From contig NZ_CP114787.1 in NCBI RefSeq assembly GCF_027359675.1, forward strand, positions 124,001 through 188,000: a stretch of 64,000 nt of DNA, written 5' to 3'. The position numbers were made by a program, and so were the translations under genes. Below the pieces are notes generated by a model. That model had not been told where the DNA came from. It searched no databases and saw only the letters and a list, made by a program, of their open reading frames with translations. Below are positions 2,614-36,173 of this stretch, in pieces. This DNA comes from Roseibium sp. Sym1 (GTDB lineage Bacteria > Pseudomonadota > Alphaproteobacteria > Rhizobiales > Stappiaceae). How positions within the stretch are numbered: the stretch's first letter is position 1; each line of letters opens with the position of its first letter.

Positions 2614-2631
2614 TCCAAACAGTTGTTAGAA
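2614..2631. promoter_or_regulatory. TetR-type operator dyad, site 1
   Basis: TCCAAACAGTTGTTAGAA, a copy of the 18-bp dyad found at eight places in this window (best copy TTCTAACATTTGTTAGAA). The right half-site GTTAGAA is perfect and the left half differs at two positions. It lies 150 bp upstream of the thiolase start and 63 bp from the next site. Confidence 0.55.
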
Positions 2632-2665
2632 AAAAGTTCAAGCAAGTGCCCCCTAATGTAGGATA

Positions 2666-2712
2666 TTGACACGACTTCATTCCGGCATCTAAAATTCTAA
2701 CAATTGATAGAA
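2666..2712 (+). promoter_or_regulatory. Promoter with TetR-type operator, site 2
   Basis: A near-consensus sigma-70 promoter is visible: TTGACA at 2666-2671, an 18-bp spacer, and TAAAAT at 2690-2695. The operator dyad TTCTAACAATTGATAGAA occupies 2695-2712, immediately over the expected transcription start, so a bound repressor would block initiation. The thiolase start codon is at 2764. Confidence 0.68.
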
Positions 2713-2763
2713 AATGCGTGGCGTCGGTATCAGAGTGCCCCAAACGAAAAGGGAGCGAGAGAA

Positions 2764-3948
2764 ATGAAGGACAAAGCGTATGTCGCCGGCGTCGGGATGG
2801 TCCCGTTCCAGAAACCTGGGAAATCGGAAAGCTATGACGTGATGGCCGCGACAGCCACGCGCGCCGCGTTGGCCGATGCGGGGCTCGACTATGACAAGGT
2901 GCAACAGGCCTATGTGGGCTATGTCTATGGCGACAGCACCTGCGGCCAACGGTCGCTGTATCAGGTCGGCATGACCGGAATTCCGGTCGTGAACGTAAAC
3001 AACAACTGCTCGACCGGATCCTCGGCGCTGTTTCTGGCGCGCCAAGCGGTCGAGAGCGGCGCTGTGGACTGCGCCCTGGCGCTGGGTTTCGAGCAGATGC
3101 AGCCCGGCGCGATCGGCGCGATGTTCCACGACCGGGTCAGCCCCTTCGCCTCGTTCGACGAAGAAACCGACGATCTCGTGGGCAACCCGGAGATCCCGCT
3201 GGCGCTGCGCTATTTCGGCGGCGCCGGCAAGGCGCATATGGAGGAGTTCGGCACCACGCTGGAAACCTTCGCCAAGATCCGCGCCAAGGCCAGCCGGCAT
3301 GCGGCGAAGAATCCGATTGCCCTGTTCCGGCAGGAGGTGACGGCTGAAGACGTCATTGCAGCACAGGTCGTCTGGCCGGGCGTGATGACCAAGCTCATGG
3401 CCTGTCCGCCAACCTGTGGCGCGGCGGCGGCGATCATCTGTTCCAAGGAATTCGCCGACAAGCACAGACTGGACAGTTCCGTGCGGATCGCGGCGCAGGC
3501 AATGACAACGGATGGCCCGGAAACTTTCGAAGCCCATGACATGCGCGAAGTGGTCGGCTTTTCGATGGCTAAGCGAGCCGCCGATCAGGTCTACGAGGCC
3601 GCAGGCATCGGGCCGCAGGATATAGACGTGGTCGAGCTGCACGACTGCTTTGCCCATAACGAGCTGATCACCTACGAGGCGCTCGGCCTTTGCGGGCGCG
3701 GCGATGCGGCGAAATTCGTCGATGATGGCGACAACACCTATGGCGGCAAATACGTGACCAACCCATCCGGCGGGCTCTTGTCCAAGGGGCATCCGCTTGG
3801 GGCGACCGGCCTTGCGCAATGCACCGAGCTTGTCCAGCAGCTACGCGGCCAGGCCGATGCGCGCCAGGTCGACGGCGCGCGCCTGGCGCTGCAGCACAAT
3901 CTGGGCCTCGGCGGGGCCTGCGTGACCACGCTTTATGAAAAAGCCTGA
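2764..3948 (+). CDS. SCP2-type thiolase (acetyl-CoA acetyltransferase family)
   Basis: Cytosolic thiolase of 394 residues in the sterol-carrier-protein-x group, expected to cleave a 3-ketoacyl-CoA with CoA in the last step of beta-oxidation. The nucleophilic Cys is present at about residue 82 (NNNCSTGSSA). The later motifs HDCFAHNE and GHPLGATG supply the catalytic His and oxyanion residues. The start at 2764 follows a good ribosome site (GGGAGCGAGAG); a longer frame from 2704 would run through the operator. It forms a two-gene unit with the SDR 24 bp downstream and is preceded by two operator dyads. The substrate is not determinable, but the SCPx group favours branched or bulky chains. Confidence 0.85.
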   Translation: MKDKAYVAGVGMVPFQKPGKSESYDVMAATATRAALADAGLDYDKVQQAYVGYVYGDSTCGQRSLYQVGMTGIPVVNVNNNCSTGSSALFLARQAVESGAVDCALALGFEQMQPGAIGAMFHDRVSPFASFDEETDDLVGNPEIPLALRYFGGAGKAHMEEFGTTLETFAKIRAKASRHAAKNPIALFRQEVTAEDVIAAQVVWPGVMTKLMACPPTCGAAAAIICSKEFADKHRLDSSVRIAAQAMTTDGPETFEAHDMREVVGFSMAKRAADQVYEAAGIGPQDIDVVELHDCFAHNELITYEALGLCGRGDAAKFVDDGDNTYGGKYVTNPSGGLLSKGHPLGATGLAQCTELVQQLRGQADARQVDGARLALQHNLGLGGACVTTLYEKA

Positions 3949-3972
3949 CGAAACGGATCGGGAGGAGACGTC

Positions 3973-4803
3973 ATGACGGGAAAACTCGACGGGCGCGTGG
4001 CGCTGGTTTCTGGGTCGGGCCGGGGGATCGGCCGGGAAATCGCGCTGAAACTGGCCTCGGAAGGCGCGCGCGTGGTGATCAACGATCTGGACGCCGATCC
4101 GGCCAATGAAACCGCCGAGGCGGTGCGCGCGATGGGTGCGGAGGCCGTGGTCTGCGCCGGTAGCGTCACCGACGACGGGTTCGCCGAACGGTTCATCAAG
4201 ACCGGCGTAGACAGCTTCGACGGGCTCGATATCATCGTGAACAACGCAGGCTACACTTGGGACAGCGTCGTTCAGAAGATGTCCGACGAACAGTGGCAGG
4301 CGATCATCGACGTCCACCTGACAGCACCCTTCAAGATCCTGCGCGCTGCCCAGCCGGTGATCAGCGCCAAGGCCAAGGAAGAGGCCGCGGTCGGGCAAGA
4401 GGTATTCCGCAAGGTAGTCAACATCTCGTCCATCGCAGGGACCGGCGGCAATGCCGGCCAGATCAACTATTCCGCCGCCAAGGCCGGTATCCTCGGGGTC
4501 ACCCGGACGATGGCCAAGGAATGGGGCCGCTATAAGGTCAACGTCAACGCCGTCGCCTTCGGCCCAATCCGCACCCGCCTGACCGAAGGTAGCGCGGATG
4601 GCAACAGCACGATCAAGGTCGAGGAAATAGAGATCAAGGTCGGCGTGAATCCCGATCTCCTGTCCCAGATGGAGCGCATGATCCCGCTGGGCCGGGTCGG
4701 CACTCCGGAAGAAGCTGCCGGTGCTGTCTATCTGTTCTGTGCGCCGGAATCGAACTTCATTTCAGGCCAGCACGTCATCTGCGGCGGCGGTTTCGTGATC
4801 TAA
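3973..4803 (+). CDS. SDR-family oxidoreductase (3-hydroxyacyl-CoA dehydrogenase-like)
   Basis: Classical short-chain dehydrogenase of 276 residues. It shows the Rossmann nucleotide motif GSGRGIG near residue 14, the NNAG motif, and the active-site YSAAK motif in INYSAAKAGILGVT. Asp at the end of beta-2 (INDLDAD) suggests NAD(H) preference. Placed right behind the thiolase with a GGAGGAG ribosome site, it would plausibly oxidise the 3-hydroxyacyl-CoA that the thiolase then cleaves. An insertion around residues 205-225 (NSTIKVEEIEIKVG) before the cofactor-closing helix is somewhat longer than in FabG. Exact substrate unknown. Confidence 0.83.
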   Translation: MTGKLDGRVALVSGSGRGIGREIALKLASEGARVVINDLDADPANETAEAVRAMGAEAVVCAGSVTDDGFAERFIKTGVDSFDGLDIIVNNAGYTWDSVVQKMSDEQWQAIIDVHLTAPFKILRAAQPVISAKAKEEAAVGQEVFRKVVNISSIAGTGGNAGQINYSAAKAGILGVTRTMAKEWGRYKVNVNAVAFGPIRTRLTEGSADGNSTIKVEEIEIKVGVNPDLLSQMERMIPLGRVGTPEEAAGAVYLFCAPESNFISGQHVICGGGFVI

Positions 4804-4920: not shown

Positions 4921-4958
4921 TTGACTCACTTGCGTTGTTTACCTAACAGTCGTTAGTT
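4921..4958 (+). promoter_or_regulatory. tetR promoter with operator, site 3
   Basis: TTGACT (4921-4926) with a 17-bp spacer leads to a weak -10 (TAACAG, 4944-4949). The dyad ACCTAACAGTCGTTAGTT covers 4941-4958 and therefore overlaps the -10 and the start point. It lies 26 bp before the tetR start codon, the layout expected for autorepression. Confidence 0.62.
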
Positions 4959-4983: not shown

Positions 4984-5613
4984 ATGGCACAAAACACGGC
5001 AAGTAAACTCAACGAGACATCGCGAAGCGCGGTCGGGCGGGACGGGGTGCTGGACATTGCAGCGCGACTTTTCCGCGAACAAGGCTACGGGTCCGTTTCG
5101 CTCCGAAAAATTGCCGAGGCCGCCGGGATCAAGGCGGGTAGCATATATTATCATTTCGGTTCCAAGGACGAGATCGTCGCGGCCGTTCTTGATGCAGGGA
5201 TTCAAGTCGTTCACGCGAGCATGAGAGACGCCGTCACCGCCCTGCCAGCGGATACCGACGGCGAAACGGTACTGCGCGCCGCGATCCGGGCGCATCTTCG
5301 CGCGCTTCTAGACGTAAGCGATTATACCTCGGCGAATGTGCGTATTTTCGGGCAGGTGCCGCAATCCGTGCGGGATGCCAACTTGCCCACGCGACGGGCC
5401 TATGAGGCAGAATGGGACAGTCTTCTGTCCCGGCTTCAGGAAGATGGCGCGCTGAAGCAAGACGTCGATATCCGCCGCCTGCGCCTGATGCTGATCGGCG
5501 CGTTGAATGCCACGCTTGATTGGTTCGACCCGGACCGCGGCAGCGCCGATGCGCTGTCTCACACCTATGCCGATGTTTTCCTTAACGGGATACTCGAAAG
5601 AAAGGATGCCTGA
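4984..5613 (+). CDS. TetR-family transcriptional regulator
   Basis: Regulator of 209 residues. The N-terminal TetR helix-turn-helix is clear: GVLDIAARLFREQGYGSVSLRKIAEAAGIKAGSIYYHFGSKDEIV, about residues 20-65. The remaining all-helical domain would bind an effector, in this context probably an acyl-CoA or related thioester. It is the first gene of the carboxylase operon (the beta subunit starts 3 bp after its stop) and has a matching operator dyad in its own promoter. The placement resembles AtuR of the acyclic-terpene cluster in Pseudomonas. I infer that it controls the eight TTCTAAC-type sites in this window; no other TetR gene is present. Confidence 0.88.
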   Translation: MAQNTASKLNETSRSAVGRDGVLDIAARLFREQGYGSVSLRKIAEAAGIKAGSIYYHFGSKDEIVAAVLDAGIQVVHASMRDAVTALPADTDGETVLRAAIRAHLRALLDVSDYTSANVRIFGQVPQSVRDANLPTRRAYEAEWDSLLSRLQEDGALKQDVDIRRLRLMLIGALNATLDWFDPDRGSADALSHTYADVFLNGILERKDA

Positions 5614-5616
5614 TAC

Positions 5617-7215
5617 ATGGCGCGTCTTGAAACAGCGGTGCTGACCGCCTCAGAGACCTACACCCGCAACCACGCAGCACAAAGCGAGCGTGTCGAAACC
5701 CTGCGTACGCGGATCGCCAAGGCAACGGCCGGCGGGCGCCTCGACATGGTCGAACGGCACCGCAAGCGCGGCAAACTGTTGGTCCGTGAGCGTATCGACC
5801 TGCTGGTGGATCCGGGCACCGCGTTTCTTGAACTGTCGTCGCTGGCCGCCTACGGGCAATATGGCGGTGAGGTTCCCGGCGCGGGGATCGTCACCGGCAT
5901 CGGGATCGTTCACGGGTTGCCCTGTGTGGTGATCGCCAATGATGCCACGGTCAAGGGCGGGTCATTTTACCACGAAACTGTGCAGAAACACATTCGCGCC
6001 CAGGAAATCGCGGCGGAAAACCGTTTGCCCTGCCTCTATCTGGTGGACTGCGGCGGGGCCTATCTGCCGGAACAGGACCGGGTTTTCCCCGATGCCCGGC
6101 ATTTCGGCAATTCCTTTTACCGCCAGACCAACATGTCGGCCAGCGGTCTGCCGCAGATCTCGGCCGTGTTCGGCGGCTGCACGGCGGGCGGGGCCTATAT
6201 TCCCGCCCTGTCGGACGAGGTCATCATGGTGCGCGGCAACGCGCGCATCCATCTGGGCGGGCCGTCGATCGTCAAGGTGGCGATCAATGAAGAGGTCGAT
6301 GGCGAAACGCTGGGCGGGGCCGAAATGCACACGCGCGTTTCGGGTGTCTCCGACCATCTGGCCGAGGACGAGCACCACGCGCTGGCGCTGATGCGCGACA
6401 TCGTGGTCGAGCTGGGCCAGTCGCGCCCGATGCAGCCCGACAAGCTGCCACAGCCGCCCGCGCATGATCCCCAGGAGCTGCTTGGCGTCATCAGTGCCGA
6501 CCGCAAGGAACCCTATGACATGCGCGAGGTTCTGCTGTGCATGATCGACGCCGGAGAATTCCGCGAATTCAAACCCAGTTGGGGCGAAACGCTGGTCTGC
6601 GGCACGGCCTGCATCCATGGATACCGGGTTGGAATCCTGGCCAACAACGGCGCGCTTTTGTCCGAAAGTTCTCTGAAGGGCGCGCAGTTCGTGTCGATGT
6701 GCGATCAACGCAACATCCCGCTTTTGTTCCTGCACAACATCTCGGGCTTCATGGTCGGCACCGACGCCGAGCGCGGCGGCATCGCCAAGAACAGCGCCAA
6801 GCTGGTCTATGCCATGTCGGTGGCCAAGGTGCCGCGCCTGTCGGTGCTGCTGGGTGGGTCCTATGGGGCGGGCAACTACGGCATGTGCGGACGCGGTTTC
6901 GCGCCGAGTTTCCTTTTTGCCTGGCCGACCGCGGAACTGGCCACCATGTCCGCCGACATCGCCACCAACGTGATGCTGGAACTGCGCCGCCAGAAGGGGG
7001 GCGATCCGGACAAGATGCAGGCCGACATGGCCAGGATCGAGGCGCAGGTGCGTGCCCAGTATGGCGAACAGTCCGATCCCTATTATGCCACCTCGCGGCT
7101 TTGGGACGACGGGCTGATCGAACCCGGACAGACCCGCGATATCCTGGGCCTGTGCCTGGCCATTATCTCTTCGGTGCCCGAGGCCGGGCGCCACACGCCC
7201 GTATTCAGAATGTGA
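5617..7215 (+). CDS. Acyl-CoA carboxylase beta subunit (methylcrotonoyl-CoA carboxylase type)
   Basis: Carboxyltransferase subunit of 532 residues that moves CO2 from carboxybiotin to an enoyl-CoA. The two crotonase-like halves are complete, with the oxyanion-type motifs GGCTAGGAYIPALSD in the N half and GGSYGAGNYGMCGRGF in the C half. The stretch PEQDRVFPDARHFG matches the 3-methylcrotonoyl-CoA carboxylase pattern more closely than what I recall of geranyl-CoA carboxylase. A leucine/isovalerate-type substrate is therefore somewhat favoured, but a terpenoid-type substrate is not excluded. The gene lies between tetR and a methylglutaconyl-CoA hydratase-like gene, and the biotin-carrying partner is two genes downstream. 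Confidence 0.87.
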   Translation: MARLETAVLTASETYTRNHAAQSERVETLRTRIAKATAGGRLDMVERHRKRGKLLVRERIDLLVDPGTAFLELSSLAAYGQYGGEVPGAGIVTGIGIVHGLPCVVIANDATVKGGSFYHETVQKHIRAQEIAAENRLPCLYLVDCGGAYLPEQDRVFPDARHFGNSFYRQTNMSASGLPQISAVFGGCTAGGAYIPALSDEVIMVRGNARIHLGGPSIVKVAINEEVDGETLGGAEMHTRVSGVSDHLAEDEHHALALMRDIVVELGQSRPMQPDKLPQPPAHDPQELLGVISADRKEPYDMREVLLCMIDAGEFREFKPSWGETLVCGTACIHGYRVGILANNGALLSESSLKGAQFVSMCDQRNIPLLFLHNISGFMVGTDAERGGIAKNSAKLVYAMSVAKVPRLSVLLGGSYGAGNYGMCGRGFAPSFLFAWPTAELATMSADIATNVMLELRRQKGGDPDKMQADMARIEAQVRAQYGEQSDPYYATSRLWDDGLIEPGQTRDILGLCLAIISSVPEAGRHTPVFRM

Positions 7216-7225
7216 GACCAATGCC

Positions 7226-8020
7226 ATGACAACCACCTATGAAACCATCCTTATCGAAACCGACGCGCGCGGGGTTGCCACGGTAACGCTCAATCGTCCT
7301 GACAAGCACAATGCTCTGAACGGCGGGCTGATCGCTGAGCTGTACGATGCCGCCGAAAAGCTGGCCGCCGATGACAGCGTGCGCATCGTGATCCTGACCG
7401 GCAACGGAAAAAGCTTCTGCGCGGGCGGTGATTTCAACTGGTTCGCTTCGAATGTCGAAAAATCCCGCGCCGAGCGGGTGTACCAGAGCGCCACGCTGGC
7501 GCGCCTGTTGCGCCGCCTTGATACTCTGCCCAAACCGCTGATCGGAAAGATCAACGGGCCGGCCTATGGCGGCGGCGTCGGCATGATTTCGGTCTGCGAT
7601 TACACAATCGGTGCCGAAGGCGCGCGGTTCGGTCTTACCGAGGTCAGGCTCGGCTTGCTGCCGGCCAACATCTCGCCCTACGTGGTGGCCCGTATCGGCA
7701 AGGTGCATTCCCGCGAAACCATGCTGTCCGGGGCGCTTTTCGACAGCGCTCGGGCCGAATGGATCGGTCTGTTGACCGAGGTCGTGGCCGCCGATGATCT
7801 GGACGCGGCCACCGAAAGCGTCGTCCACAATCACCTGCAGGCCGCGCCGGGCGTGGTGTCCGACACCAAGGCGCTGATCGCCTATGTCGCGTCCCACGAT
7901 CTTGAAACCAATATGATCTACACCGCCGACCGGCTGGCCGATGCCTGGGAAACCGAAGAGGGTATCGAAGGTATCAACAGTTTCATCAACAAGGGCGTTC
8001 CGTCATGGTGGGTGAAATGA
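7226..8020 (+). CDS. Enoyl-CoA hydratase, methylglutaconyl-CoA hydratase-like
   Basis: Crotonase-fold hydratase of 264 residues. The oxyanion-hole segments are SFCAGGDFNWF (about 66-76) and GPAYGGGVGM (about 111-120). The stretch FGLTEVRLGLLPANISPYVV is characteristic of the LiuC/AtuE group, which hydrates the product of methylcrotonoyl- or geranyl-CoA carboxylase. Its position between the two carboxylase subunits fits that role. The expected next enzyme, a hydroxymethylglutaryl-CoA-type lyase, is not in this operon. The stop codon overlaps the start of the alpha subunit gene (ATGA), indicating translational coupling. Confidence 0.85.
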   Translation: MTTTYETILIETDARGVATVTLNRPDKHNALNGGLIAELYDAAEKLAADDSVRIVILTGNGKSFCAGGDFNWFASNVEKSRAERVYQSATLARLLRRLDTLPKPLIGKINGPAYGGGVGMISVCDYTIGAEGARFGLTEVRLGLLPANISPYVVARIGKVHSRETMLSGALFDSARAEWIGLLTEVVAADDLDAATESVVHNHLQAAPGVVSDTKALIAYVASHDLETNMIYTADRLADAWETEEGIEGINSFINKGVPSWWVK

Positions 8021-10026
8021 GCTTTACCCGCGTCCTGATCGCCAACCGCGGCGAGATCGCCCGCCGTATTCAGCGCGGGTGCCGCAAGCTGGGGTTGGAA
8101 AGCGTGGCTGTATTTTCAGAGGCCGACCGCGACGCGCCCTTCGTGCACGAGGCCGATCATGCCGTCTGCATCGGCGGGGCGGCCCCTTCGGAAAGCTATC
8201 TGAACGTCGGGGCCATTCTGGATGCCGCACGCGCGACCGGCGCGGGGGCGGTGCATCCGGGCTATGGCTTTCTGTCGGAAAACGCCGGTTTCGCGGCCGC
8301 GGTCGAGGCGGCGGGCCTTGTGTTCATCGGGCCGAAGCCCGATGCAATTGCCATGATGGGGTCGAAAATCGAGGCCAAGGCGGCTGCCGAGGACGCAGGC
8401 ATACCCGTGCTGCCCGGTTATCGCGGCGAAGATCAGTCCGACGCGCGCCTGCTGAAAGAGGCCGAGGCGCTTGGCACCCCCTTTCTGGTCAAGGCCAGCG
8501 CAGGCGGCGGCGGGCGCGGGATGCGGCTTGTCACCGATCTGGACGAGGCACCCGAGGCGATTGCATCCGCCCGGGCCGAAGCCCAGGGGGCCTTTGGCGA
8601 TCCGGCGGTGTTCCTTGAACGCTATGCGCCCCGCGCCCGCCACGTCGAGGTGCAGGTGCTGGGCGATACTCACGGCACCGCGCTGCATCTGGGCGACCGC
8701 GACTGTTCGCTTCAGCGCAACCACCAGAAGCTGATCGAAGAGGCCCCCGCCGCAGATCTGCCCGAGGCTTTGCGCGATGACATGCGGGCGGCGGCTGTGC
8801 GGCTGGCGCAGGCGATCGGCTATCGCTCGGCCGGGACGGTGGAATACCTCTTTGATCCGGCCCGTGGCGAATATTACTTTCTTGAAATGAACACCCGCTT
8901 GCAGGTCGAACACCCTGTGACCGAGGCGATCACCGGCATCGACCTGGTTGAATGGCAGTTGCGCATCGCGCGGGGCGAGCCACTGACACTGGCGCAATCG
9001 GATGTGCAATTCGACGGGCACGCCATTGAAATCCGCATCGCCGCCGAAAACCCGGCCGAGAGCTTCCGCCCCGAAACGGGCCGGATCACCCTCTGGGCTC
9101 CGCCCGCCGGCGTGCGGCTGGATACAGGGGTCGAAGCAGGCTCGGTCGTCAGCCACCATTACGATTCGATGATTGCCAAGCTGATCGTCCATGCGCCGGA
9201 CCGGGCCGGGGCGATCCGCCGGGCGGTTGCCGCGATGGATGACTTTGCCGTCGGTGGCGTCGGTCTGAACCTGGCCTATCAACGTGCCCTGCTGCTGCAT
9301 CCGGATTTTCAGACGTTCCGGCACCACACATCGGGCCTGCCCGAGATGTTCCTCGATGGCTGGACGCACCCGACCCCCGATCCCCGGGACTCGGCCTTCG
9401 CCGCGATTGCGCTACACCTGCATCTCGCGCCAGCGGCGGCGGGCGCGTCGCCCTGGGAAAGCCTTGGGTCATGGCGGCTCACGGCCCCTGGCGGACGGCC
9501 CGGTGCGGCATCCTATTGGGATACGACCAATGACGACCCGATCCGCGTGACCGGCTCCGGAACAATATTCGCCGCCGTGCCGCCAGGCGGCCAGACCGTC
9601 ACGGTCGAAACCGCCGCCCTGACCGGGGACCGTCTGAGCGGACGCATCGACGGTGTTCCATTTGCGCGCATCGCCCATGTCGAACGTGCCCGCGATCATT
9701 GGCGGGTGCACCTGCAAACCTCTGCCGGAATGGCAGCGGCAGACCTGCGCACGCTGGAGGATCAGCATCTGCAACGCGCCACGGGTGGATCTGGCGGCGC
9801 TGACCTGCTGTCGGCGCCCATGCCGGGTGCTGTTGCCGAGGTGCGCGTCGCGCCCGGCGACCGCGTCGAAGCCGGTGACACGCTGGTGGTGCTGGAAGCC
9901 ATGAAGCTCTTGCAAAGCCTGCCCGCGCCGGTCGCGGGCGTGGTGACGGAAATCTATTGTGCACCCGGCGACACGGTTGCCGGGCACGCCCCACTTATCA
10001 AACTCGATCCGGAGGAAAACACATGA
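8017..10026 (+). CDS. Acyl-CoA carboxylase alpha subunit (biotin carboxylase plus BCCP)
   Basis: Biotin-dependent subunit of 669 residues. The N-terminal biotin carboxylase begins FTRVLIANRGEIARR and carries the ATP-grasp glycine loop KASAGGGGRGMR and the FLEMNTRLQVEHPVTE motif. A middle domain links to a C-terminal biotinyl domain whose EAMKLL motif gives the biotinylated lysine at about residue 630. It charges biotin with bicarbonate and ATP for the beta subunit at 5617-7215. The start at 8017 gives a 4-bp ATGA overlap with the hydratase; an in-frame ATG at 8005 is possible. The protein depends on biotin supply, which makes the BioY remnant nearby notable. Confidence 0.92.
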   Translation: MSFTRVLIANRGEIARRIQRGCRKLGLESVAVFSEADRDAPFVHEADHAVCIGGAAPSESYLNVGAILDAARATGAGAVHPGYGFLSENAGFAAAVEAAGLVFIGPKPDAIAMMGSKIEAKAAAEDAGIPVLPGYRGEDQSDARLLKEAEALGTPFLVKASAGGGGRGMRLVTDLDEAPEAIASARAEAQGAFGDPAVFLERYAPRARHVEVQVLGDTHGTALHLGDRDCSLQRNHQKLIEEAPAADLPEALRDDMRAAAVRLAQAIGYRSAGTVEYLFDPARGEYYFLEMNTRLQVEHPVTEAITGIDLVEWQLRIARGEPLTLAQSDVQFDGHAIEIRIAAENPAESFRPETGRITLWAPPAGVRLDTGVEAGSVVSHHYDSMIAKLIVHAPDRAGAIRRAVAAMDDFAVGGVGLNLAYQRALLLHPDFQTFRHHTSGLPEMFLDGWTHPTPDPRDSAFAAIALHLHLAPAAAGASPWESLGSWRLTAPGGRPGAASYWDTTNDDPIRVTGSGTIFAAVPPGGQTVTVETAALTGDRLSGRIDGVPFARIAHVERARDHWRVHLQTSAGMAAADLRTLEDQHLQRATGGSGGADLLSAPMPGAVAEVRVAPGDRVEAGDTLVVLEAMKLLQSLPAPVAGVVTEIYCAPGDTVAGHAPLIKLDPEENT

Positions 10027-11242: not shown

Positions 11243-11427
11243 TGAGCTACTCCCCAACCTTTGGACAGTTTTCGAGGTGATTTAAGCTACTCTTTGCCCC
11301 TGCTGGTCGGTTTCGGTTTGGGTGAAGTAGACCACGGCGGGCGGCTGTCCGCCATGGGCAGCATGAGGCCGCTGGTAATTGTAGAAGGCGATCCATTTCG
11401 CGACGCCGGCTTTGGCCTGCGATCCGG
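11243..11427 (-). repeat. 185-bp IS right end, copy 2 (inverted repeat)
   Basis: Reverse-complement copy of 2349-2533, covering the last 48 or so codons of the IS3-family transposase and the terminal repeat that begins TGAGCTACTCCCC. No other part of the IS is present here: homology stops abruptly at 11427, where a bioY-like frame begins. The copy is therefore a truncated remnant. Confidence 0.92.
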
Positions 11428-12328: not shown

Positions 12329-12346
12329 TTCAAACAGATGTTAGAA
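12329..12346. promoter_or_regulatory. TetR-type operator dyad, site 4
   Basis: TTCAAACAGATGTTAGAA, one mismatch from perfect symmetry in the half-sites. It lies 41 bp before the CoA-transferase start codon at 12387. Confidence 0.65.
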
Positions 12347-20447: not shown

Positions 20448-20451
20448 GGAA

Positions 20452-23890: not shown

Positions 23891-23969
23891 GACTGGGCTT
23901 CCCCGCGGCAAACACGTCGCGGGGAACCTTTCCGCGGTTAGATTGTTCCGAGAAAGCGAAGCGAGTATC

Positions 23970-24746: not shown

Positions 24747-24757
24747 TGGAGGCTTGA

Positions 24758-25540: not shown

Positions 25541-25582
25541 CTCGGTTGAAACCTTATCGCAAAACTCAAGGAGACCACGCCA

Positions 25583-28888: not shown

Positions 28889-28906
28889 ATAAAACAATTG
28901 TTAGAA
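28889..28906. promoter_or_regulatory. TetR-type operator dyad, site 6
   Basis: ATAAAACAATTGTTAGAA: a perfect right half-site and a weak left half (three mismatches), 38 bp before the acyl-CoA dehydrogenase start. The weakest of the eight sites. Confidence 0.5.
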
Positions 28907-28943: not shown

Positions 28944-30101
28944 ATGTCTCTGATCTCGAATAGTTCGACCTGGGCCGCAGATGAACACAAGATGTTCGCG
29001 GACACCACCCGCAAGCTTTTCGATGCTGAAATGGCACCGAATGTCGAAAAATGGGCGGATCAGGGGATCGTTGATCGCGAATTCTGGCGTACGGTCGGTG
29101 AACAGGGCGTCATGGGTGGCTCGATTGCCGAAGAATATGGCGGGTTCGGTGGCGGCATCGGGTTCGACGCGATTACCGTTTACGAGCAGGGCCGCACCGG
29201 TGATACGGGTTGGGGCTATGGCATCCAGTCCATCGTAATCCATTACCTCAACGCATATGGCAGCGAAGAACAAAAGAAAAAGTGGTTGCCGAAATTGGTC
29301 AGCGGCGACCATGTCGCGGCCATCGCGATGACCGAGCCGGGAACGGGTTCTGACCTCCAGAATGTCCAGACCTATGCGGAAAAGGATGGCAACCACTATA
29401 AGATCAACGGATCGAAGATCTTCATCACCAACGGGCACACGGCGGAGCTGGTTGTGATCGTGGCAAAGACCGACCGCAACGCCGGCGCCAAGGGCGTTTC
29501 GTTGATCGTTCTGGAAACCGAGGGCGCCGAGGGCTTTCGCCGGGGACGGAACCTGAAGAAACTGGGTATGAAAGGTTCGGATACGGCCGAGCTGTTCTTC
29601 GAGGATGTCCGCGTGCCTACGCCGAACCTGCTGGGCCAGGAGGAGGGGCAGGGGTTCTATCAACTGATGAAGCAACTACCCTGGGAACGGCTGATGATCG
29701 GCATCACCGCGCTTGGCTTCATCGACTTCGCCATCGCCGAGACGGTGAAATACGTCCAGGACCGCAAGGCGTTCGGCAGCCGGATCATGGATTTTCAGAA
29801 CACCCGGTTCAAGCTGGCGGAATGCAAGACGAAGGCCGAATTGCTGCGCAGCTTCGTCAATGACGGGATCGCCCGCCTGGAAACCGGCAGGCTGGATGCG
29901 GCTACCGCGTCGATGGCGAAATGGTGGGGCAGCCAAACCCAGAACGAGGTCATGCATGAATGCCTGCAACTGCATGGCGGCTATGGCTTCATGATGGAGT
30001 TCCCGATCGCACGGCTCTACGCCGACAGCCGGGTGCAGATGATCTATGGCGGCACCAACGAAATCATGAAGGAACTGATTGCGCGGTCGATGGATATCTG
30101 A
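28944..30101 (+). CDS. Acyl-CoA dehydrogenase
   Basis: FAD enzyme of 385 residues with the full family set: GVMGGSIAEEYGGFGGG, AIAMTEPGTGSDLQNVQT, INGSKIFITNGHTAELVV, VQDRKAFGSRIMDFQNTRF, LQLHGGYGFMMEFPIARLYADSRVQMIYGGTNEIMKELIAR. The organisation resembles long-chain and AcdA-type dehydrogenases acting on medium to long chains. It is a single-gene unit with its own operator (site 6), convergent with the two CoA-transferase genes on the minus strand. Confidence 0.9.
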   Translation: MSLISNSSTWAADEHKMFADTTRKLFDAEMAPNVEKWADQGIVDREFWRTVGEQGVMGGSIAEEYGGFGGGIGFDAITVYEQGRTGDTGWGYGIQSIVIHYLNAYGSEEQKKKWLPKLVSGDHVAAIAMTEPGTGSDLQNVQTYAEKDGNHYKINGSKIFITNGHTAELVVIVAKTDRNAGAKGVSLIVLETEGAEGFRRGRNLKKLGMKGSDTAELFFEDVRVPTPNLLGQEEGQGFYQLMKQLPWERLMIGITALGFIDFAIAETVKYVQDRKAFGSRIMDFQNTRFKLAECKTKAELLRSFVNDGIARLETGRLDAATASMAKWWGSQTQNEVMHECLQLHGGYGFMMEFPIARLYADSRVQMIYGGTNEIMKELIARSMDI

Positions 30102-30126: not shown

Positions 30127-31293
30127 TCAGTCTTCGTCGGCCCCTAGGATTTCTTCGGTATGCTCGCCCAGCCGCGGAGCTGGAAGGTGGTCGGACCGCG
30201 CCGGCGTGGCCGAGAACTGCACCGGCGGGCGTGTCGCCCAGATCGTGCCTTCGCTGGGGTGGTCCAGCCGCTGAAAGAAGCCTGTCGCGGCAAGATGCGG
30301 ATCGGCTGGAAGATCGGCGAGGTTGCGCACCGGCATCGCCGGGATGTCGGCCTGTTGCATCAGCTCCATCCATTCATCGGTGGTCCGGGTCGGTGCCAGT
30401 TCGGCCACCATGTCGTAGACCGCGCCGATATTGCGGCTGCGCGCATCCATGTCCGTCACCCAAGGATGATCGGCCATGTCGGTGCGGCCGACCGCCTGGA
30501 AAAAGCGTGCCCATTGGACATTGGTATAGGGCAGGATGGTGATGTAGCCGTCCCGTGTCTGCACTGGTCGGCGGTGCGGCACCAGCATACGAGCATAGCC
30601 GAAATCCTGCGGAGTTTCCTCGAACGTGGCACCGTCGAGATGCTCGACCAGAAGGAAGGAAGAAAGCGTTTCGAACATCGGCACTTCGACATGCTGTGCC
30701 TCGCCGGTGCGTTCGCGGTGAAACAGCGCCGCCATCACCGCATAGGCCGCAGTCACGCCGCCCAGCTTGTCGGCCAGGATTGTCGGCGCATAGGCAGGCG
30801 GCGCGTCGGGGTCGCGCAGGGCGGCAAGGCTGGCCAGCCCCGAAACCGACTGCACGATGTCGTCGAAGGCGGGCCGATCGGCATAGGGCCCGTCCTGGCC
30901 GTAGCCTGTGGCCGAAACGGTGATAAGGTTCGGGTTCTCGCGCCGCAGCGTCTCGGGGTCGAGAGACAGGCGCGCGAGCGCGGCGGGCCGGATGCTGGAA
31001 ATCATAACATCCGCATCGGCAAGCAACCTGCGCAAGCGTCCCTGGTCGTTAGCGGTCTTTAGATCGAGAACGACGCTGCGCTTGTTGCGGTTGGTGCCGA
31101 GAAAGGCCGCGCCCATCTTCTTGTTCCGCGACGGCTGGACCTGCCGCAAAAGGTCGCCCTCCGGACTTTCGACCTTGATCACATCGGCACCCAGCTCGCC
31201 CAGCATCTGGGTCGCCAGCGGGCCGAACACCACCGAGGTCAGGTCGACGATCGTCACGCCATCGAGAATCGATGCCTTGGGTTCCGTTTTCAT
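30127..31293 (-). CDS. Family III CoA-transferase
   Basis: CoA-transferase of 388 residues. It contains VTIVDLTSVVFGPLATQMLGELGADVIKVESPEGD, MISSIRPAALARLSLD, VSATGYGQDGPYADRPAFDDIVQSVSG and VPMFETLSSFLLVEHLDG. Start ATG 31293; a longer frame exists but would overlap the upstream gene. It lies 4 bp downstream of another family III gene (31298-32467), so the two form one minus-strand unit. Tandem CoA-transferases may be different specificities or one complex; nothing here decides between these. Confidence 0.85.
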   Translation of the reverse strand: MKTEPKASILDGVTIVDLTSVVFGPLATQMLGELGADVIKVESPEGDLLRQVQPSRNKKMGAAFLGTNRNKRSVVLDLKTANDQGRLRRLLADADVMISSIRPAALARLSLDPETLRRENPNLITVSATGYGQDGPYADRPAFDDIVQSVSGLASLAALRDPDAPPAYAPTILADKLGGVTAAYAVMAALFHRERTGEAQHVEVPMFETLSSFLLVEHLDGATFEETPQDFGYARMLVPHRRPVQTRDGYITILPYTNVQWARFFQAVGRTDMADHPWVTDMDARSRNIGAVYDMVAELAPTRTTDEWMELMQQADIPAMPVRNLADLPADPHLAATGFFQRLDHPSEGTIWATRPPVQFSATPARSDHLPAPRLGEHTEEILGADED

Positions 31294-31297
31294 GGTC

Positions 31298-32467
31298 TCA
31301 GCGGTCCTTTCTGGACATTGTGCCGAATTCCGTCCGGATCGCCGCGCCATCCGCGTCGAAGCCGGGCGAGGGGCCGAGCGCCGGGTTCCCCCTGCTTCGC
31401 CTGATCGGCGGCGCGGGCATGCGAAACGCGCCCGCGGGCGACGCGATGGTCGTGCGGTCGAGCTGGGGGTGTTGGGACAGGGCGGCAATGTCGTTCACCG
31501 CGCCATAGGCGATCATCGATCGCGCCAGCAGATCGAGCATGTCGGGCCGGTCCCGCGCCGCAAAGGCGGCCTCGATCATCGGCTGCAGCACGCCCCGGTT
31601 GCTGTTGCGGCTGTCATTGCTGTCAAAACGCGGATCCGTGGCCAGGTCCGGCTGTGACAGCACCGTGTCGCAGAACCGCGCCCATTCCCTTTCGTTCTGG
31701 ATCGAGATCACGATCTGTTCACCATCGCGGCAGGTATACGCGCCATAGGGGCAGATGTTGGGGTGGCTCAGACCGACCCGCGGCGTGTGCCGGTTCGCGT
31801 ATTCGTGAAAAACCAGCGGCACCGCCATCCAGTCCGCGAGCGTGTCGAACATCGCCACCGAAACGCCGGTTCCCCGGCCGGTGCGGCCGCGCTCCACGAG
31901 CGCCTCGCAGATCGCGGCATGGGCGGTCATGCCGGTCGAGATGTCGCACACCGACACCCCTACCCGGCCAGGGCCGTCCGGCGTTCCGGTGACCGATGCC
32001 AGGCCGCTTTCGCATTGGATCAGAAGGTCGTAGGCCTTGGCATCCCGCATCGGCCCGTCGGCGCCATATCCGGTAATGTCGCAGGTGATCAGCTGCGGGA
32101 ATCGTTCGCGAAGCGTCACCGAATCGAGCCCGAGCTTTTCCAGCGCGCCGGGCAGAAGGTTCTGGATGAACACATCGGCGCGTTCCAGCATCGCAATCAG
32201 CAGCGCGCGGTCCTCGCCGGACTTGATGTCCAGCGCGACCGATTCCTTGCCGCGGTTCAACCAGATGAAATAGGCGCTTTCCCCATGTGCCGCAGTGTCG
32301 TAGCCGCGGGCAAAATCGCCGGCTCCCTTGCGTTCGATCTTGATCACCCGTGCGCCGGCATCGGCCAGCCGCGACGTGCAGAACGGCGCCGCGACGGCCT
32401 GTTCCAGCGCGATGATCAGGGTGCCGGCCAAAGGTCTGGCCTGCGGCCCGCAATTCGGATTGCTCAT
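31298..32467 (-). CDS. Family III CoA-transferase (mesaconyl/itaconyl-CoA transferase-like)
   Basis: CoA-transferase of 389 residues. TLIIALEQAVAAPFCTSRLADAGARVIKIERKGAGDFARGYD is close to the succinyl-CoA:mesaconate/itaconate-type transferases. YFIWLNRGKESVALDIKS and TGYGADGPMRDAKAYDLLIQCESGL also fit that group. It starts 36 bp from operator site 7 in the divergent region and heads the minus-strand pair. A link with the citramalyl-CoA pathway genes at 41914-43568 is attractive but inferential. Confidence 0.8.
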   Translation of the reverse strand: MSNPNCGPQARPLAGTLIIALEQAVAAPFCTSRLADAGARVIKIERKGAGDFARGYDTAAHGESAYFIWLNRGKESVALDIKSGEDRALLIAMLERADVFIQNLLPGALEKLGLDSVTLRERFPQLITCDITGYGADGPMRDAKAYDLLIQCESGLASVTGTPDGPGRVGVSVCDISTGMTAHAAICEALVERGRTGRGTGVSVAMFDTLADWMAVPLVFHEYANRHTPRVGLSHPNICPYGAYTCRDGEQIVISIQNEREWARFCDTVLSQPDLATDPRFDSNDSRNSNRGVLQPMIEAAFAARDRPDMLDLLARSMIAYGAVNDIAALSQHPQLDRTTIASPAGAFRMPAPPIRRSRGNPALGPSPGFDADGAAIRTEFGTMSRKDR

Positions 32468-32502: not shown

Positions 32503-32520
32503 AACTAACATCTGTTAGAA
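32503..32520. promoter_or_regulatory. TetR-type operator dyad, site 7 (divergent)
   Basis: AACTAACATCTGTTAGAA lies between the divergent CoA-transferase gene (start 32467, minus) and the DUF35 gene (start 32564, plus). One site could control both directions. Confidence 0.65.
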
Positions 32521-32563: not shown

Positions 32564-32941
32564 ATGCAAGACAAGACCGGATCGAATCAGACATTCCGGC
32601 GCGCGCTGGCGGATGGCGAGATCGCGCTCCCAAAATGCGACAGTTGCGGAAAATTTCATTTCTTCCCGCGCGTCGTCTGTCCGCATTGCCATGAAACGGC
32701 GTTGTCCTGGCACAAGGCCAGCGGTTGTGGAGAGGTGCATACGACGACCGTAGTCCGCCGCAGGTCCGAGCAGGGCGGGGATTACAACATTTGCATGGTC
32801 GAGCTGGAGGAAGGAGTGCGGATGATGAGCCGGGTCGAGGGGGTCGCGCCCGCGGATGTGGCGATCGGTATGGCGATCACCGTCTATGTCGGCGAGATCG
32901 ACGGAAAGCCTGCGGTGCTGTGCAAGCCGGTGGAGGGCTGA
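32564..32941 (+). CDS. DUF35 OB-fold/zinc-ribbon acyl-CoA-associated protein
   Basis: Small protein of 125 residues. An N-terminal zinc ribbon has Cys25, Cys28, Cys39 and Cys42 (CDSC...CPHC), followed by an OB-fold with the typical EVHTTTVVRR and YNICMVELEEGVRMMSRVEG segments. DUF35 proteins form complexes with thiolase-like partners, including the steroid side-chain aldolase Ltp2, and are needed for their activity. The next gene, 3 bp downstream, is exactly such a thiolase-like protein. Its role is therefore as partner subunit that helps position the CoA substrate. Confidence 0.88.
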   Translation: MQDKTGSNQTFRRALADGEIALPKCDSCGKFHFFPRVVCPHCHETALSWHKASGCGEVHTTTVVRRRSEQGGDYNICMVELEEGVRMMSRVEGVAPADVAIGMAITVYVGEIDGKPAVLCKPVEG

Positions 32942-32944
32942 GCG

Positions 32945-34096
32945 ATGACGGGAGGTTTGCGGGGAAAGACTGCCATCGTGGGCACCGGCCATGCCGGATT
33001 CGGCGAGGCGCATGGCCTGACCGCCTATGACATCATGGCCCAGGCGGGGCTGGCGGCGGTGGCCGACGCGGGACTGTCGCTGGCCGATGTCGACGGGCTG
33101 TTCTGCACCATGATGGAAGACAGCATGCCGGTGCTGATGGCGGCCGAGTATCTTGGTATCCAGCCGCGATTCGTCGATGGTACGATGACCGGCGGGTCGT
33201 CCTTCGTGAACTACTTGACCTCGGCGGCGATGGCGCTCGATGCGGGACTGTGCGATGTCGCGCTGATCGTCTATGGCTCGAATCAGAGAACCGCGTCGGG
33301 ACGGCTGGTGACGGCCTCGCGCCCACCCGAATACGAGGCCCCGTACAAGCCGCGCTATCCGATCTCTGCCTATGCGATGGCCGCGGCCCGGCATATGTAC
33401 GAATACGGCACCACCCGCGAACAACTGGCCGAAGTGGCGGTGGCCGCGCGCGCCTGGGCGCGGCTCAATCCCGAGGCGTTCGATCGCGGCCCGCTGAGCC
33501 GCGAGGACGTGCTGGCCGCGCGCATGGTGGGCGACCCGCTGACTGTGCGCGACTGTTGCCTGGTGACCGACGGTGGCGGCGCGATGGTGATGGTGCGCGC
33601 CGACCGTGCCAGGGATTGCCCGAAGCCGCCAGTCTATCTGCTTGGCAGTGCCGCGGCCAGTTCGCACCGGCAGATATCACAGATGCGGGATTTCACCACC
33701 ACGGCGGCCCGCGAATCCGGCGCGCGCGCCTTCGCGGTGGCCGGAGTGGCGCCGGGCGATATAGACCTGGTCGAGCTCTATGACGCGTTCACGATCAATA
33801 CGATCCTGTTCCTGGAGGATCTCGGGTTCTGCGCCAAGGGCGAAGGGGGCGCCTTTGTCGAGGGTGGACGCATCGCCCCGGGCGGGGTGCTACCGGTGAA
33901 CACCAATGGTGGCGGGCTGTCCTGTGTGCATCCGGGGATGTACGGCATCTTTACCGTGATCGAAGCCGCGCGGCAGATCCGTGGCGACGCGCCCGGACAG
34001 CAGCTAGAGAATATCGACCTGGCGCTTGCCCACGGCAATGGCGGCGTTCTGTCCAGCCAGGTCACGGCGATCTTGGGATCGGGAAACACGCAGTAG
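32945..34096 (+). CDS. Thiolase-like protein lacking the Cys nucleophile (candidate acyl-CoA retro-aldolase)
   Basis: Thiolase-fold protein of 383 residues. At the place of the nucleophilic Cys the sequence reads TGGSSFVNY (residues 82-90), so ordinary thiolytic cleavage is unlikely. Conserved later parts are VELYDAFTINTILFLEDLGF and NTNGGGLSCVHPGMYG. The absent Cys, the DUF35 partner gene directly upstream and the MaoC-type hydratase directly downstream are the hallmarks of Ltp2/Sal-type aldolases, which split a 3-hydroxyacyl-CoA into a ketone or aldehyde and a shorter acyl-CoA. The function is inferred by these features; a non-catalytic or degraded thiolase is the alternative. Confidence 0.78.
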   Translation: MTGGLRGKTAIVGTGHAGFGEAHGLTAYDIMAQAGLAAVADAGLSLADVDGLFCTMMEDSMPVLMAAEYLGIQPRFVDGTMTGGSSFVNYLTSAAMALDAGLCDVALIVYGSNQRTASGRLVTASRPPEYEAPYKPRYPISAYAMAAARHMYEYGTTREQLAEVAVAARAWARLNPEAFDRGPLSREDVLAARMVGDPLTVRDCCLVTDGGGAMVMVRADRARDCPKPPVYLLGSAAASSHRQISQMRDFTTTAARESGARAFAVAGVAPGDIDLVELYDAFTINTILFLEDLGFCAKGEGGAFVEGGRIAPGGVLPVNTNGGGLSCVHPGMYGIFTVIEAARQIRGDAPGQQLENIDLALAHGNGGVLSSQVTAILGSGNTQ

Positions 34097-34117
34097 GCGT
34101 TCCAGGGAGGAAGAAAC

Positions 34118-34975
34118 ATGCCACTGGATTTCGAGGCGCTTTCGAATTGGGATTTCGAGGAAATCGAGCAGACGCTAAGCGAAAGAGACACGATTCTCTA
34201 TGCGCTAGGGCTGGGTTTCGGTGAAGATCCGACCGACAAGAAGGAACTGGCCTATGTCTACGAGGACGGGCTGAAGGCGGTGCCGTCTATGGCGGTCACG
34301 ATGGGCTATCCGGGGTTCTGGCTGCGCGACCCGAGAACCGGCGTGAACTGGCAGAAGGTTCTGCATGGCGAGCAGTGGCTGGACATCTACAAGCCTCTGC
34401 CGGTGAAGGGCAATATCGTCGGCCGCAGCAAGATCGACTTCATCTCCGACAAGGGCGAGGGCAAAGGCGCCGTCATCTATCAAAGCCGCGAAATCATCGA
34501 CGCCGATACCGGCGAAAAGCTGGCTCGCGTAGCGATGTCGGCCTTTTGCCGTGGTGACGGCGGTTTCGGCGGGGAAAACCGCCCCGGACCGACGCCTGCC
34601 GAGCTGCCCGACCGCGCCCCCGATCATGTCTGCGACATCGAAACGCTGCCGCGGCAGGCGCTGATCTATCGGCTCAGCGGCGATTACAACCCCCTGCACG
34701 CCGACCCCGACGTGGCGCGCTCGGTCGGGTTCGACCGGCCGATCCTGCATGGGCTGGCCACCTATGGCTTGGCGGCGCGCGCGATCCTCAAATCGCTGCT
34801 GGACTACGACGCCAGCCGTCTCGTCGGGCTGGATGTGCGATTCTCGGCGCCGGTCTATCCGGGTGAAACCGTGCGGTTCGAGATCTGGGAAGGCGGGGGC
34901 GAGGCCCGGTTCCGTGCCTCGGTCCCTGTACGCGAGGTGGTGGTCCTGAACAATGGGGCCGCCAGGTTCGCGTGA
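34118..34975 (+). CDS. MaoC-family (R)-enoyl-CoA hydratase 2
   Basis: Double hot-dog hydratase of 285 residues. The N half is the degenerate hot-dog. The C half carries the hydratase-2 motif YRLSGDYNPLHADP with catalytic Asp189 and His194, then GFDRPILHGLATYG. The architecture equals that of eukaryotic multifunctional-enzyme hydratase 2, which handles bulky 2-methyl-branched enoyl-CoAs. Placed next to the aldolase-like gene, it would make the 3-hydroxyacyl-CoA for it. RBS GGGAGGAAG at 34105-34113. Confidence 0.88.
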   Translation: MPLDFEALSNWDFEEIEQTLSERDTILYALGLGFGEDPTDKKELAYVYEDGLKAVPSMAVTMGYPGFWLRDPRTGVNWQKVLHGEQWLDIYKPLPVKGNIVGRSKIDFISDKGEGKGAVIYQSREIIDADTGEKLARVAMSAFCRGDGGFGGENRPGPTPAELPDRAPDHVCDIETLPRQALIYRLSGDYNPLHADPDVARSVGFDRPILHGLATYGLAARAILKSLLDYDASRLVGLDVRFSAPVYPGETVRFEIWEGGGEARFRASVPVREVVVLNNGAARFA

Positions 34976-34987
34976 GGGGGGGGAAAG

Positions 34988-36124
34988 ATGCAGCCGCTCG
35001 ACGATATTCTGGTGCTCGATTTCAGCACCCTTCTTCCGGGTCCGATGGCGACGCTAATGTTGGCCGAGGCCGGCGCTGAGGTAATCAAGTTCGAGCGCCC
35101 CGGTACAGGCGAGGACGCGCGCCATACGAATCCCAAATTAAATGGTGAAAGCATCGGCTTTGCCGTGCTGAACCATGGGAAGCGGTCGGTAGCAATTGAT
35201 CTGAAGGCAGAGGGCACGGTGGAATCGCTGCGCCCCCTGATCGAGAAGGCCGATGTGCTGGTCGAACAGTTCCGCCCGGGCGTCATGGATCGGCTGGGGC
35301 TGGGGTATGACACCCTTCGCCGGATCAATCCGGGGCTCATCTATTGCTCGATCACCGGCTATGGCCAGACCGGGCCAAAGGCGGCGTCCGCCGGGCACGA
35401 TCTGAACTATGCAGGCGATTCGGGCGTACTGTCGCTCAGCCGGGGTCCCGACGATCATCCGACGATGCCATCTGGTCTGATCGCCGATGTTGGCGGCGGC
35501 ACCTATCCTGCCGTGATGAACATCCTGCTCGCCCTTCGGGCTCGCGACCGGAACGGGCAGGGGATCCATCTGGATATCGCGATGGCCGAGGGCGCCTTTG
35601 CCTTTGCCTATTGGGCCCATGCCGAAGGCGTGATCGCTGGCCAGGACATCGACAGCGGCGGCAGTCGGCTGACGGGCGGGCTTGCGCGCTACCGGCTCTA
35701 TACTGCAGGCGACGGACGGCAGGTCGCGGTTGGCGCGCTGGAAGAGAAATTCTGGCAGGCCTTCTGCGACGTGATCGGCCAGCCGGCCGATCTGCGCGAC
35801 GATTGGGCCGATCCGGAAACCTGCGCCGCAGAAGTGGCGCGGCGTCTGGCAGAGAGGCCTTCGTCCGATTGGGCACCGCTTCTGGAGGAGGCGGATTGTT
35901 GCTGCACGGTCGTGAAAATCCCCGCCGAGGCTGCCGCAGACCCGCATTTCGCGGCGCGCGGCGTGTTCGGCCGGATGCTGGCGATTGCCGGCACCAAGGT
36001 ATCGGCCCTGCCATTGCCGATTGCGCCCGGATTTCGTGGTCCGGCGGACCAAATCGGCCGCGCGCCATCTTTGGGAGAAGACAATGCGCGCCATAGCGTG
36101 GTGGTGGATCGTGAGCCGGAATGA
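34988..36124 (+). CDS. Alpha-methylacyl-CoA racemase-like family III protein
   Basis: Protein of 378 residues in the CaiB/BaiF fold that matches racemases rather than transferases. It has AGHDLNYAGDSGVLS (His137), MPSGLIADVGGGTYPAVM (Asp167) and VAVGALEEKFWQAF (Glu252). These correspond to the His/Asp/Glu catalytic set of alpha-methylacyl-CoA racemase (His126, Asp156, Glu241 in the mycobacterial enzyme). It would interconvert 2R- and 2S-methylacyl-CoAs so that dehydrogenases specific for one isomer can act. This is the best single clue that the pathway handles 2-methyl-branched chains. It starts 12 bp after the hydratase gene. Confidence 0.82.
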   Translation: MQPLDDILVLDFSTLLPGPMATLMLAEAGAEVIKFERPGTGEDARHTNPKLNGESIGFAVLNHGKRSVAIDLKAEGTVESLRPLIEKADVLVEQFRPGVMDRLGLGYDTLRRINPGLIYCSITGYGQTGPKAASAGHDLNYAGDSGVLSLSRGPDDHPTMPSGLIADVGGGTYPAVMNILLALRARDRNGQGIHLDIAMAEGAFAFAYWAHAEGVIAGQDIDSGGSRLTGGLARYRLYTAGDGRQVAVGALEEKFWQAFCDVIGQPADLRDDWADPETCAAEVARRLAERPSSDWAPLLEEADCCCTVVKIPAEAAADPHFAARGVFGRMLAIAGTKVSALPLPIAPGFRGPADQIGRAPSLGEDNARHSVVVDREPE

Positions 36125-36130
36125 ATCCCG

Positions 36131-36173
36131 TTGACGGGTGGGCTATCGGACATTATTCTAACATTTGTTAGAA
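36131..36173 (+). promoter_or_regulatory. Promoter with TetR-type operator, site 8
   Basis: TTGACG (36131-36136), 17-bp spacer, TATTCT (36154-36159). The dyad TTCTAACATTTGTTAGAA at 36156-36173 is the best of the eight copies, with fully symmetric 8-base half-sites. It overlaps the -10 and start point of the operon that begins at 36192. Confidence 0.7.

Follow-up and report, generated by a model that had tools for sequence, protein, structure and literature searches.

Mce3R of Mycobacterium tuberculosis is a double TetR repressor that carries both helix-turn-helix (HTH) motifs, is autoregulated and acts on genes of lipid and cholesterol metabolism, and its 25-bp operator is nonpalindromic (PMC11667970). 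In the mycobacterial KstR regulon, one TetR protein governs dozens of lipid-degradation genes through a palindrome that overlaps the -10 region and often lies between divergent genes; KstR itself has one TetR unit per chain and recognises TnnAACnnGTTnnA (AAC-N2-GTT) as a dimer (PMC1995591). AtuR of Pseudomonas aeruginosa, a TetR protein that regulates an acyclic terpene cluster with AtuA, acts as repressor of the divergent gene next to it and recognises two inverted repeats of 13 bp (PMC3511530), and a survey of mycobacterial TetR proteins was also consulted (PMC4482099). Here we analyse a 64,000-bp stretch of Roseibium sp. Sym1 (hereafter, the window), which corresponds to positions 124001-188000 of the replicon NZ_CP114787.1 (C2; 192,102 bp, or 2.6 % of the 7,257,095-base genome) and in which an 18-bp operator dyad recurs in front of genes of acyl-CoA metabolism. 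It appears likely that these dyads define a plasmid-borne catabolic regulon in which the canonical (class A) operators are bound by a double TetR protein encoded on C2 outside the window, with the single TetR encoded at 4984 acting as a local second layer on a variant (class B) operator. Site numbers without a prefix are window positions; sites upstream of the window are given as C2 coordinates.

The C2 double TetR resembles Mce3R in that two TetR units are combined in one chain with both HTHs intact, and would likewise be autoregulated and act on lipid-related genes; by analogy with Mce3R (PMC11667970) the two halves could form an intramolecular pseudo-dimer. It differs in its operator, a near-perfect 18-bp palindrome as opposed to the nonpalindromic site of Mce3R. 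The structure PDB 9b7y is matched by both C2 TetR proteins, as the best match of the single TetR and at a lower rank for the double TetR. The best functional parallel is the KstR regulon, with AAC-N4-GTT and a double TetR here instead of AAC-N2-GTT and a single one; a KstR-type motif was considered for the class A dyads and rejected because the AAC-GTT spacing is 4, not 2. By gene content, the only level at which the two were compared, the locus is similar to AtuR and the atu acyclic terpene cluster in having an AtuA family gene and genes for biotin-dependent acyl-CoA carboxylases. Among the best literature matches, a scope outside which most subscription papers fall, we found no account of this regulator, of its operator, of the cluster in roseobacters or of tandem TetRs besides Mce3R.

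The initial annotation, made from the sequence of the window, had described eight copies of one dyad. All eight 18-mers were found when the letters of the window were checked, at 2614, 2695, 4941, 12329, 14813, 28889, 32503 and 36156, and the gene calls agree that each is intergenic, with a start codon no more than about 150 bp away. We built a 24-bp matrix from 107 sites, all of them from relatives and none from this genome, and symmetrised it; it detected ten sites on C2 at 26.5-37.2 bits, seven in the window and three upstream of it, whereas site 4941 scored 11.5 bits and is a distinct variant rather than an equivalent copy. The next match on C2 reached 5.5 bits and lies within a gene, and the top score in five Markov copies of C2 was 5.7 bits. 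All ten class A sites are located between called genes and near gene starts, and their symmetrised consensus is AAWTCTAACANNTGTTAGAWTT. The individual operators are as follows.

2614..2631: class A operator, 27.9 bits; in relatives, minus-strand TTG at -10 in three of three copies, toward a hexapeptide transferase gene
2695..2712: class A operator, 32.2 bits; promoter of the thiolase and short-chain dehydrogenase/reductase (SDR) unit, where TTGACA-18-TAAAAT ends at the operator
4941..4958: class B operator variant, 11.5 bits; ahead of the single TetR gene, and present in 15 of 15 close relatives
12329..12346: class A operator, 32.5 bits; CoA-transferase and acyl-CoA dehydrogenase unit
14813..14830: class A operator, 26.5 bits; 12-gene unit of SDR, LIV-type ABC transporter, ligase and electron transfer flavoprotein (ETF) genes
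28889..28906: class A operator, 30.2 bits; acyl-CoA dehydrogenase gene at 28944
32503..32520: class A operator, 27.6 bits; between divergent units, with TTG on both sides
36156..36173: class A operator, a perfect dyad, 35.7 bits; unit of transglutaminase-like, MaoC and acyl-CoA dehydrogenase genes
C2:101545, C2:110162 and C2:116601: class A operators ahead of the window start

Plain pattern searches gave the same picture. At up to 3 mismatches, TTCTAACNNNNGTTAGAA matched seven places in the window (site 4941 lies beyond this limit), compared with a mean of 0.49 and a maximum of 3 in 100 shuffles. Across the whole genome, TTCTAACANNTGTTAGAA at up to 3 mismatches occurs at 13 places, ten on C2 and three chromosomal, while the reversed pattern occurs at 12, only one of which is on C2; at up to 2 mismatches there are 10 places, 9 of them on C2, against one for the reversed control. 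The search of replicon and genome that the initial annotation had proposed shows the motif to be enriched on this one plasmid relative to the reversed control. Furthermore, a second matrix (84 training sites) was run on 14 annotated plasmid stretches kept out of training, and 10 of these contain sites of at least 23 bits, mostly ahead of equivalent units. Only weaker matches were obtained in the other four: L115 and L131 (11.1-12.4 bits), where the matches are class B or mutase-operon variants, Polaromonas (12.5) and Cupriavidus (10.4). One such variant, ACCAAACAATCGTTTGCT at L131:5701-5718, represents a third form of the operator and lies on a Pseudosulfitobacter plasmid, ahead of the TetR gene in an operon for a cobalamin-dependent acyl-CoA mutase. 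A chromosomal near-copy at C1:536228 (L028:6228-6245; one mismatch, 15.5 bits) was excluded from the regulon: the TetR gene behind it is a different one (TetR_C_33), efflux genes of the HlyD and AcrB types lie on the other strand, and the copy is read as the site of a different regulator.

The single TetR has one paralogue on C2, a protein of 474 amino acids encoded at C2:110224-111648, outside the window. Two TetR units are contained within its one open frame, with PF00440 and PF17932 each matched twice, and the two halves share 32 % and 38 % identity with the single TetR. A full-scoring class A operator (C2:110162) stands ahead of its gene. We collected the best 80 of 210 relatives as double TetR loci and scanned 79 of them, the locus L106 being excluded for want of upstream DNA; in 78 of the 79, a class A site (at most 3 mismatches) precedes the start of the double TetR match, at -62 to -107, but these do not amount to 78 independent cases because many of the loci are closely related. 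The only other sites in most of these 20-kb loci are the equivalents of C2:101545 and C2:116601. In an alignment of double TetRs with rows chosen from the loci, both HTHs are kept in 22 of 22 proteins, and the recognition helices, AGSIYY in the first half and AGSxYYHF in the second, are invariant. Identical double and single TetRs are encoded in Labrenzia sp. R4_2.

In a tree of the halves of ten alphaproteobacterial double TetRs, the N-terminal halves (support 100/98) and the C-terminal halves (93/98) form sister groups (joint support 100/98), and a Rhodococcus double TetR has its own halves joined to each other (99/98), apart from the alphaproteobacterial halves; long branches were flagged by the program, and the sequences did not include Mce3R. 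This topology suggests that the alphaproteobacterial and Rhodococcus proteins arose by separate fusions. The Rhodococcus gene (L137:11971-13293) is located near genes for a 3-hydroxy-3-methylglutaryl-CoA (HMG-CoA) lyase, acyl-CoA dehydrogenases and OB-fold/thiolase proteins, and thus keeps similar company despite the apparently separate fusion.

Across genomes, the operator co-occurs with the double TetR. Among 385 sampled genomes of the class, a double TetR was found in three (this one, G272 and G349), with 10, 7 and 2 sites at up to 2 mismatches, respectively. Any site at all was present in 94 of the other 382, of which four have 4 or 5 (the reversed control gives 1-4 there) and none more than 5. 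We then surveyed the genomes of 50 of the 80 double TetR loci, mostly isolates, for operators and the single TetR. All 50 have operators, 4-10 each, compared with 0-4 for the controls. A single TetR orthologue (E up to 1e-60) is encoded in 45, in one case (G436) with an internal stop, and the five genomes without it, G409, G410, G424, G003 and G006, keep 9, 9, 10, 7 and 4 operators; the first three are isolates, and the last two are metagenome-assembled, so that the miss may be a gap. G272, which is 100 % complete, likewise combines seven operators with no single TetR. Within the family of G272 (25 genomes), the five genomes whose double TetR is 48-54 % identical contain 2-5 sites, in part near the gene, and the 15 genomes without a double TetR have 0-3.

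The position of the operators relative to promoters was examined in 254 strand contexts of relatives' sites. A TTG starts at -10 in 65 contexts and at -9 in 76 (141 of 254), and a second peak of 41 is found at -25. From a TTG at -10 or -9, a spacer of 16-17 leads to TAGAAT or TAGATT, which is the right half-site itself, and from a TTG at -25 such a spacer leads to TATTCT over the left half-site; in other words, the GTTAGAAT half-site often coincides with a -10 hexamer, with TTG 16-17 bases upstream. On C2, TTG is present at -10/-9 at seven of the ten class A sites, on both strands at C2:116601, 14813 and 32503. It is lacking from that position at 2695, where TTGACA is located further upstream, at 36156, which has the -25 form, and at 12329, which has no TTG. 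When groups of equivalent sites were compared by gene direction, TTG was mostly on the side of a gene: at 28889 it is one-sided, toward the gene, in three of three copies, at C2:101545 it is found only on the acyl-CoA dehydrogenase side (five of five), and the equivalents of C2:116601 and 32503 have it on both sides at -8 to -10 (four of four each), as expected for divergent units. The initial annotation had noted that four dyads overlap a recognisable promoter. This is partly supported: a promoter scan of 27-42 kb gave four matches, all on the operators 28889 and 36156, but this number equals the shuffle expectation (mean 3.8), and the TTG peak across relatives provides better promoter support than this plain scan.

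Site 2614 is a special case. The hexapeptide transferase of the relatives has no tblastn match in window positions 1-3000, and because this left-facing gene is missing the site may be a relic here or, alternatively, an additional operator of the 2764 unit. The reading frame 1904-2515 was considered as the transferase and rejected, since its length and place match by chance and it shows no similarity. A group II intron reverse transcriptase/maturase is encoded at 421-1950, just upstream of the part of the cluster that lies in the window and about where the relatives carry the transferase gene.

The class B operator at 4941 reads ACCTAACANNYGTTAGTT and has one exact place in this genome; at up to 2 mismatches the pattern finds two further places, but only the exact match counts because the control gives 3-4 at that limit. 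Among the single TetR's relatives fetched at an identity of roughly 60 % and above, 15 of 15 have ACCTAACANNYGTTAGNT (CCCTAAC in one) at -40 to -45 of the gene, and a carboxyl transferase gene follows in 15 annotated neighbourhoods; no class B site was found at two distant relatives, from Polaromonas and Cupriavidus. We rejected the idea that the single TetR and its carboxylase are always missing from plasmids together, since plasmids of Sulfitobacter pontiacus and Pseudosulfitobacter carry the carboxylase operon (94.5-94.7 % identity) without the TetR and without the class B site. On these two plasmids an SDR gene ends about 100 bp before the operon, which thus continues a unit with a class A site at its promoter (28.5 bits), an arrangement that we read as a natural loss of the local regulatory layer. 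Collectively, these comparisons distinguish two operator classes and probably two regulatory tiers, and the single TetR probably controls only its carboxylase operon via its own operator.

From the sites, their positions and conservation, their co-occurrence with the double TetR and their persistence without the single TetR, we infer a mechanism of binding, repression and release. Because both halves have an intact HTH, one double TetR chain can cover one palindrome, and the two halves would do so on a class A site. The bound protein would cover the -10 box and block RNA polymerase by occlusion. At some divergent sites, where two antiparallel promoters overlap, a single protein would shut off both. 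Release of the double TetR by one of the pathway's CoA thioesters would turn on about 57 genes at once, its own gene among them, while the single TetR would bind the class B operator at 4941 and control the carboxylase operon. A more elaborate version of this scenario, which we advance tentatively, is that the alphaproteobacterial double TetR, the product of its own duplication and fusion, stands in for a dimer as a single chain, that the halves of the palindrome double as -10 boxes for a pair of overlapping antiparallel promoters, with one molecule closing two operons, and that it switches a mobile regulon of about 80 kb for isoprenoid acids, in which the second TetR gates one carboxylase module.

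Several observations weigh against this interpretation. The operator of the double TetR is itself not universal, as an Acidocella locus (L107) is the sole exception among the 79 in having no site ahead of the gene. In the G272 family, four genomes with a double TetR of only 39-42 % identity have 0, 0, 0 and 1 sites, none nearby, and for this reason the motif belongs to one branch of double TetRs. Three sites are present in G452 (92 % complete), in which no double TetR was found, and a Frigidibacter plasmid encodes the single TetR and bears two class A sites but no double TetR on that replicon, the only one examined. Smaller, unexplained TTG peaks of 23-29 are present at -15, -31 and -37 in the 254 contexts, half of the site groups (5 of 10) lack TTG at -10/-9 on an expected side, and at 14813 two of three copies have a TTG on the back side, where no gene starts. 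Some units of the cluster lack a class A site (27505-28362 on the minus strand, 41914-43568, C2:105266-105721 and the class B operon), and a third copy of the carboxylase operon, on a 110-kb plasmid behind an IS21 element, has neither operator class. The class gap is also less clean in relatives than on C2, with class A-type copies down to 16.2-17.6 bits and one class B copy up to 18.7. Finally, the single TetR is a paralogue of both double TetR halves with a near-identical recognition helix and for that reason may also bind class A sites.

This last point leads to an alternative in which both TetRs bind all operators and compete, so that the single TetR tunes the whole regulon. The two classes have the core TAAC-N4-GTTA in common, site 32503 is within 2 mismatches of both class patterns, and the class B copy of 18.7 bits was scored on the class A matrix. 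We nevertheless regard such competition as unlikely, given that class A sites are equally numerous in genomes without the single TetR that the outer bases of class B differ consistently, and that the matrix scores in this genome are 11.5 against at least 26.5 bits. Far less probable still is the proposal of the initial annotation that all sites answer to the single TetR at 4984 as master repressor and autorepressor. Autoregulation is common among TetRs of acyl-CoA pathways, this one lies in the window and adjoins a related operator, and the Frigidibacter plasmid with its two class A sites could be read in the same way; however, five of the 50 surveyed genomes and G272 keep the operators without it, and the canonical operator stands before the double TetR gene, as it does in nearly all of the scanned loci.

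The double TetR might also bind the dyads while the TTG/CAA outside them is the outer part of its binding site and not a -35 box. Bilateral TTG at several sites, including the gene-less side of 14813, and the left-facing TTG retained at 2614 although the gene there is gone would be explained in this way, but this reading fits poorly with an offset that varies between -8, -9 and -10, with TTG on the gene side only at 28889 and on the transferase side only at the 2614 equivalents (three of three each), and with TAGAAT/TAGATT recurring 16-17 bases on; we consider this improbable. Hardly credible is a repeat or structural element of the plasmid without a regulatory role, an idea to which only the concentration of the dyads on one replicon would lend itself: all ten lie between genes and close to gene starts, the dyad is conserved whereas its flanks vary, and the same genes are preceded by dyads in relatives of other genera. 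The preferred reading thus remains repression of the class A units by the double TetR, with the single TetR as a local layer on class B.

As judged from gene order, on which operon extents and the size of the regulon depend, the class A units would hold about 57 genes over C2:88.6-165.7 kb (about 77 kb), 29 in the window and 28 upstream. The regulon thus appears larger than the roughly 25 genes between 2.7 and 41.7 kb envisaged at first, and includes three more operators upstream of the window. The features in the window are as follows.

2764..4803, plus strand: SCP2-type thiolase (lipid-transfer protein) and SDR unit
4984..5613, plus strand: single TetR, 209 amino acids, probable local regulator of the next operon
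5617..11189, plus strand: biotin-dependent acyl-CoA carboxylase operon, with carboxyl transferase (CT), enoyl-CoA hydratase, biotin carboxylase/biotin carboxyl carrier protein (BC/BCCP) and acyl-CoA dehydrogenase
11261..11779, plus strand: BioY biotin transporter, directly behind the carboxylase operon, likewise on two relatives' plasmids
12387..14764, plus strand: CoA-transferase III and acyl-CoA dehydrogenase unit
14872..27267, plus strand: 12-gene unit of SDR, LIV-type ABC transporter with ligase and two binding proteins, two crotonases and ETF
28944..30101, plus strand: acyl-CoA dehydrogenase
30127..32467, minus strand: two CoA-transferase III genes, divergent from 32564
32564..36124, plus strand: unit of ChsH2-like OB-fold protein, thiolase, MaoC hydratase and CoA-transferase III
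36192..41681, plus strand: unit of transglutaminase-like protein, MaoC, two acyl-CoA dehydrogenases, crotonase and one further protein

The further protein of the last unit has no Pfam match and is annotated in relatives as a member of the phenylacetate-CoA ligase family (two) or as hypothetical (one). A terminator-like hairpin of 10 pairs at 27300-27325, directly after the ETF genes, is likely to mark the end of the 12-gene unit; the hairpin search gave 7 matches against a shuffle mean of 12.5. The gene types of the regulon comprise acyl-CoA dehydrogenases, CoA ligases, CoA transferases, crotonases, thiolases (one with a ChsH2-like partner), a LIV-type ABC transporter, ETF and AtuA. The AtuA family gene (PF07287, 477 bits) lies beside BC, biotin-carrier and CT genes, which constitute a split carboxylase; a second carboxylase of the cluster is accompanied by an HMGL-like gene, and the third is the class B operon. 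Among the NCBIfam matches listed for the pathway enzymes, no name other than those of two thiolase subfamilies was above its cut-off. Because AtuA, three biotin-dependent carboxylases and an HMG-CoA-lyase-like gene occur together, our guess is that the substrate is an isoprenoid-type, beta-methyl-branched acid. C2 carries RepC, a ParA-like gene and the conjugation genes TrbE, TrbL, TrbI and CagX (window 46433-60413), and is probably a conjugative plasmid.

Taken together, the finding is real and goes further than first described: the idea of a single regulon of acyl-CoA genes with one operator family and a likely TetR-family repressor holds, and the regulator first named for it is probably wrong, which shifts attention from the single TetR to the double TetR as the protein to study. 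If this is true, a catabolic island on plasmids and contigs of many marine Alphaproteobacteria would be under one switch, with modules carrying the operator along, and a double TetR on a palindrome would offer a natural comparison with Mce3R on its nonpalindromic site. A large uncharacterised cluster would also become testable, as the inducing acyl-CoA should point to the substrate.

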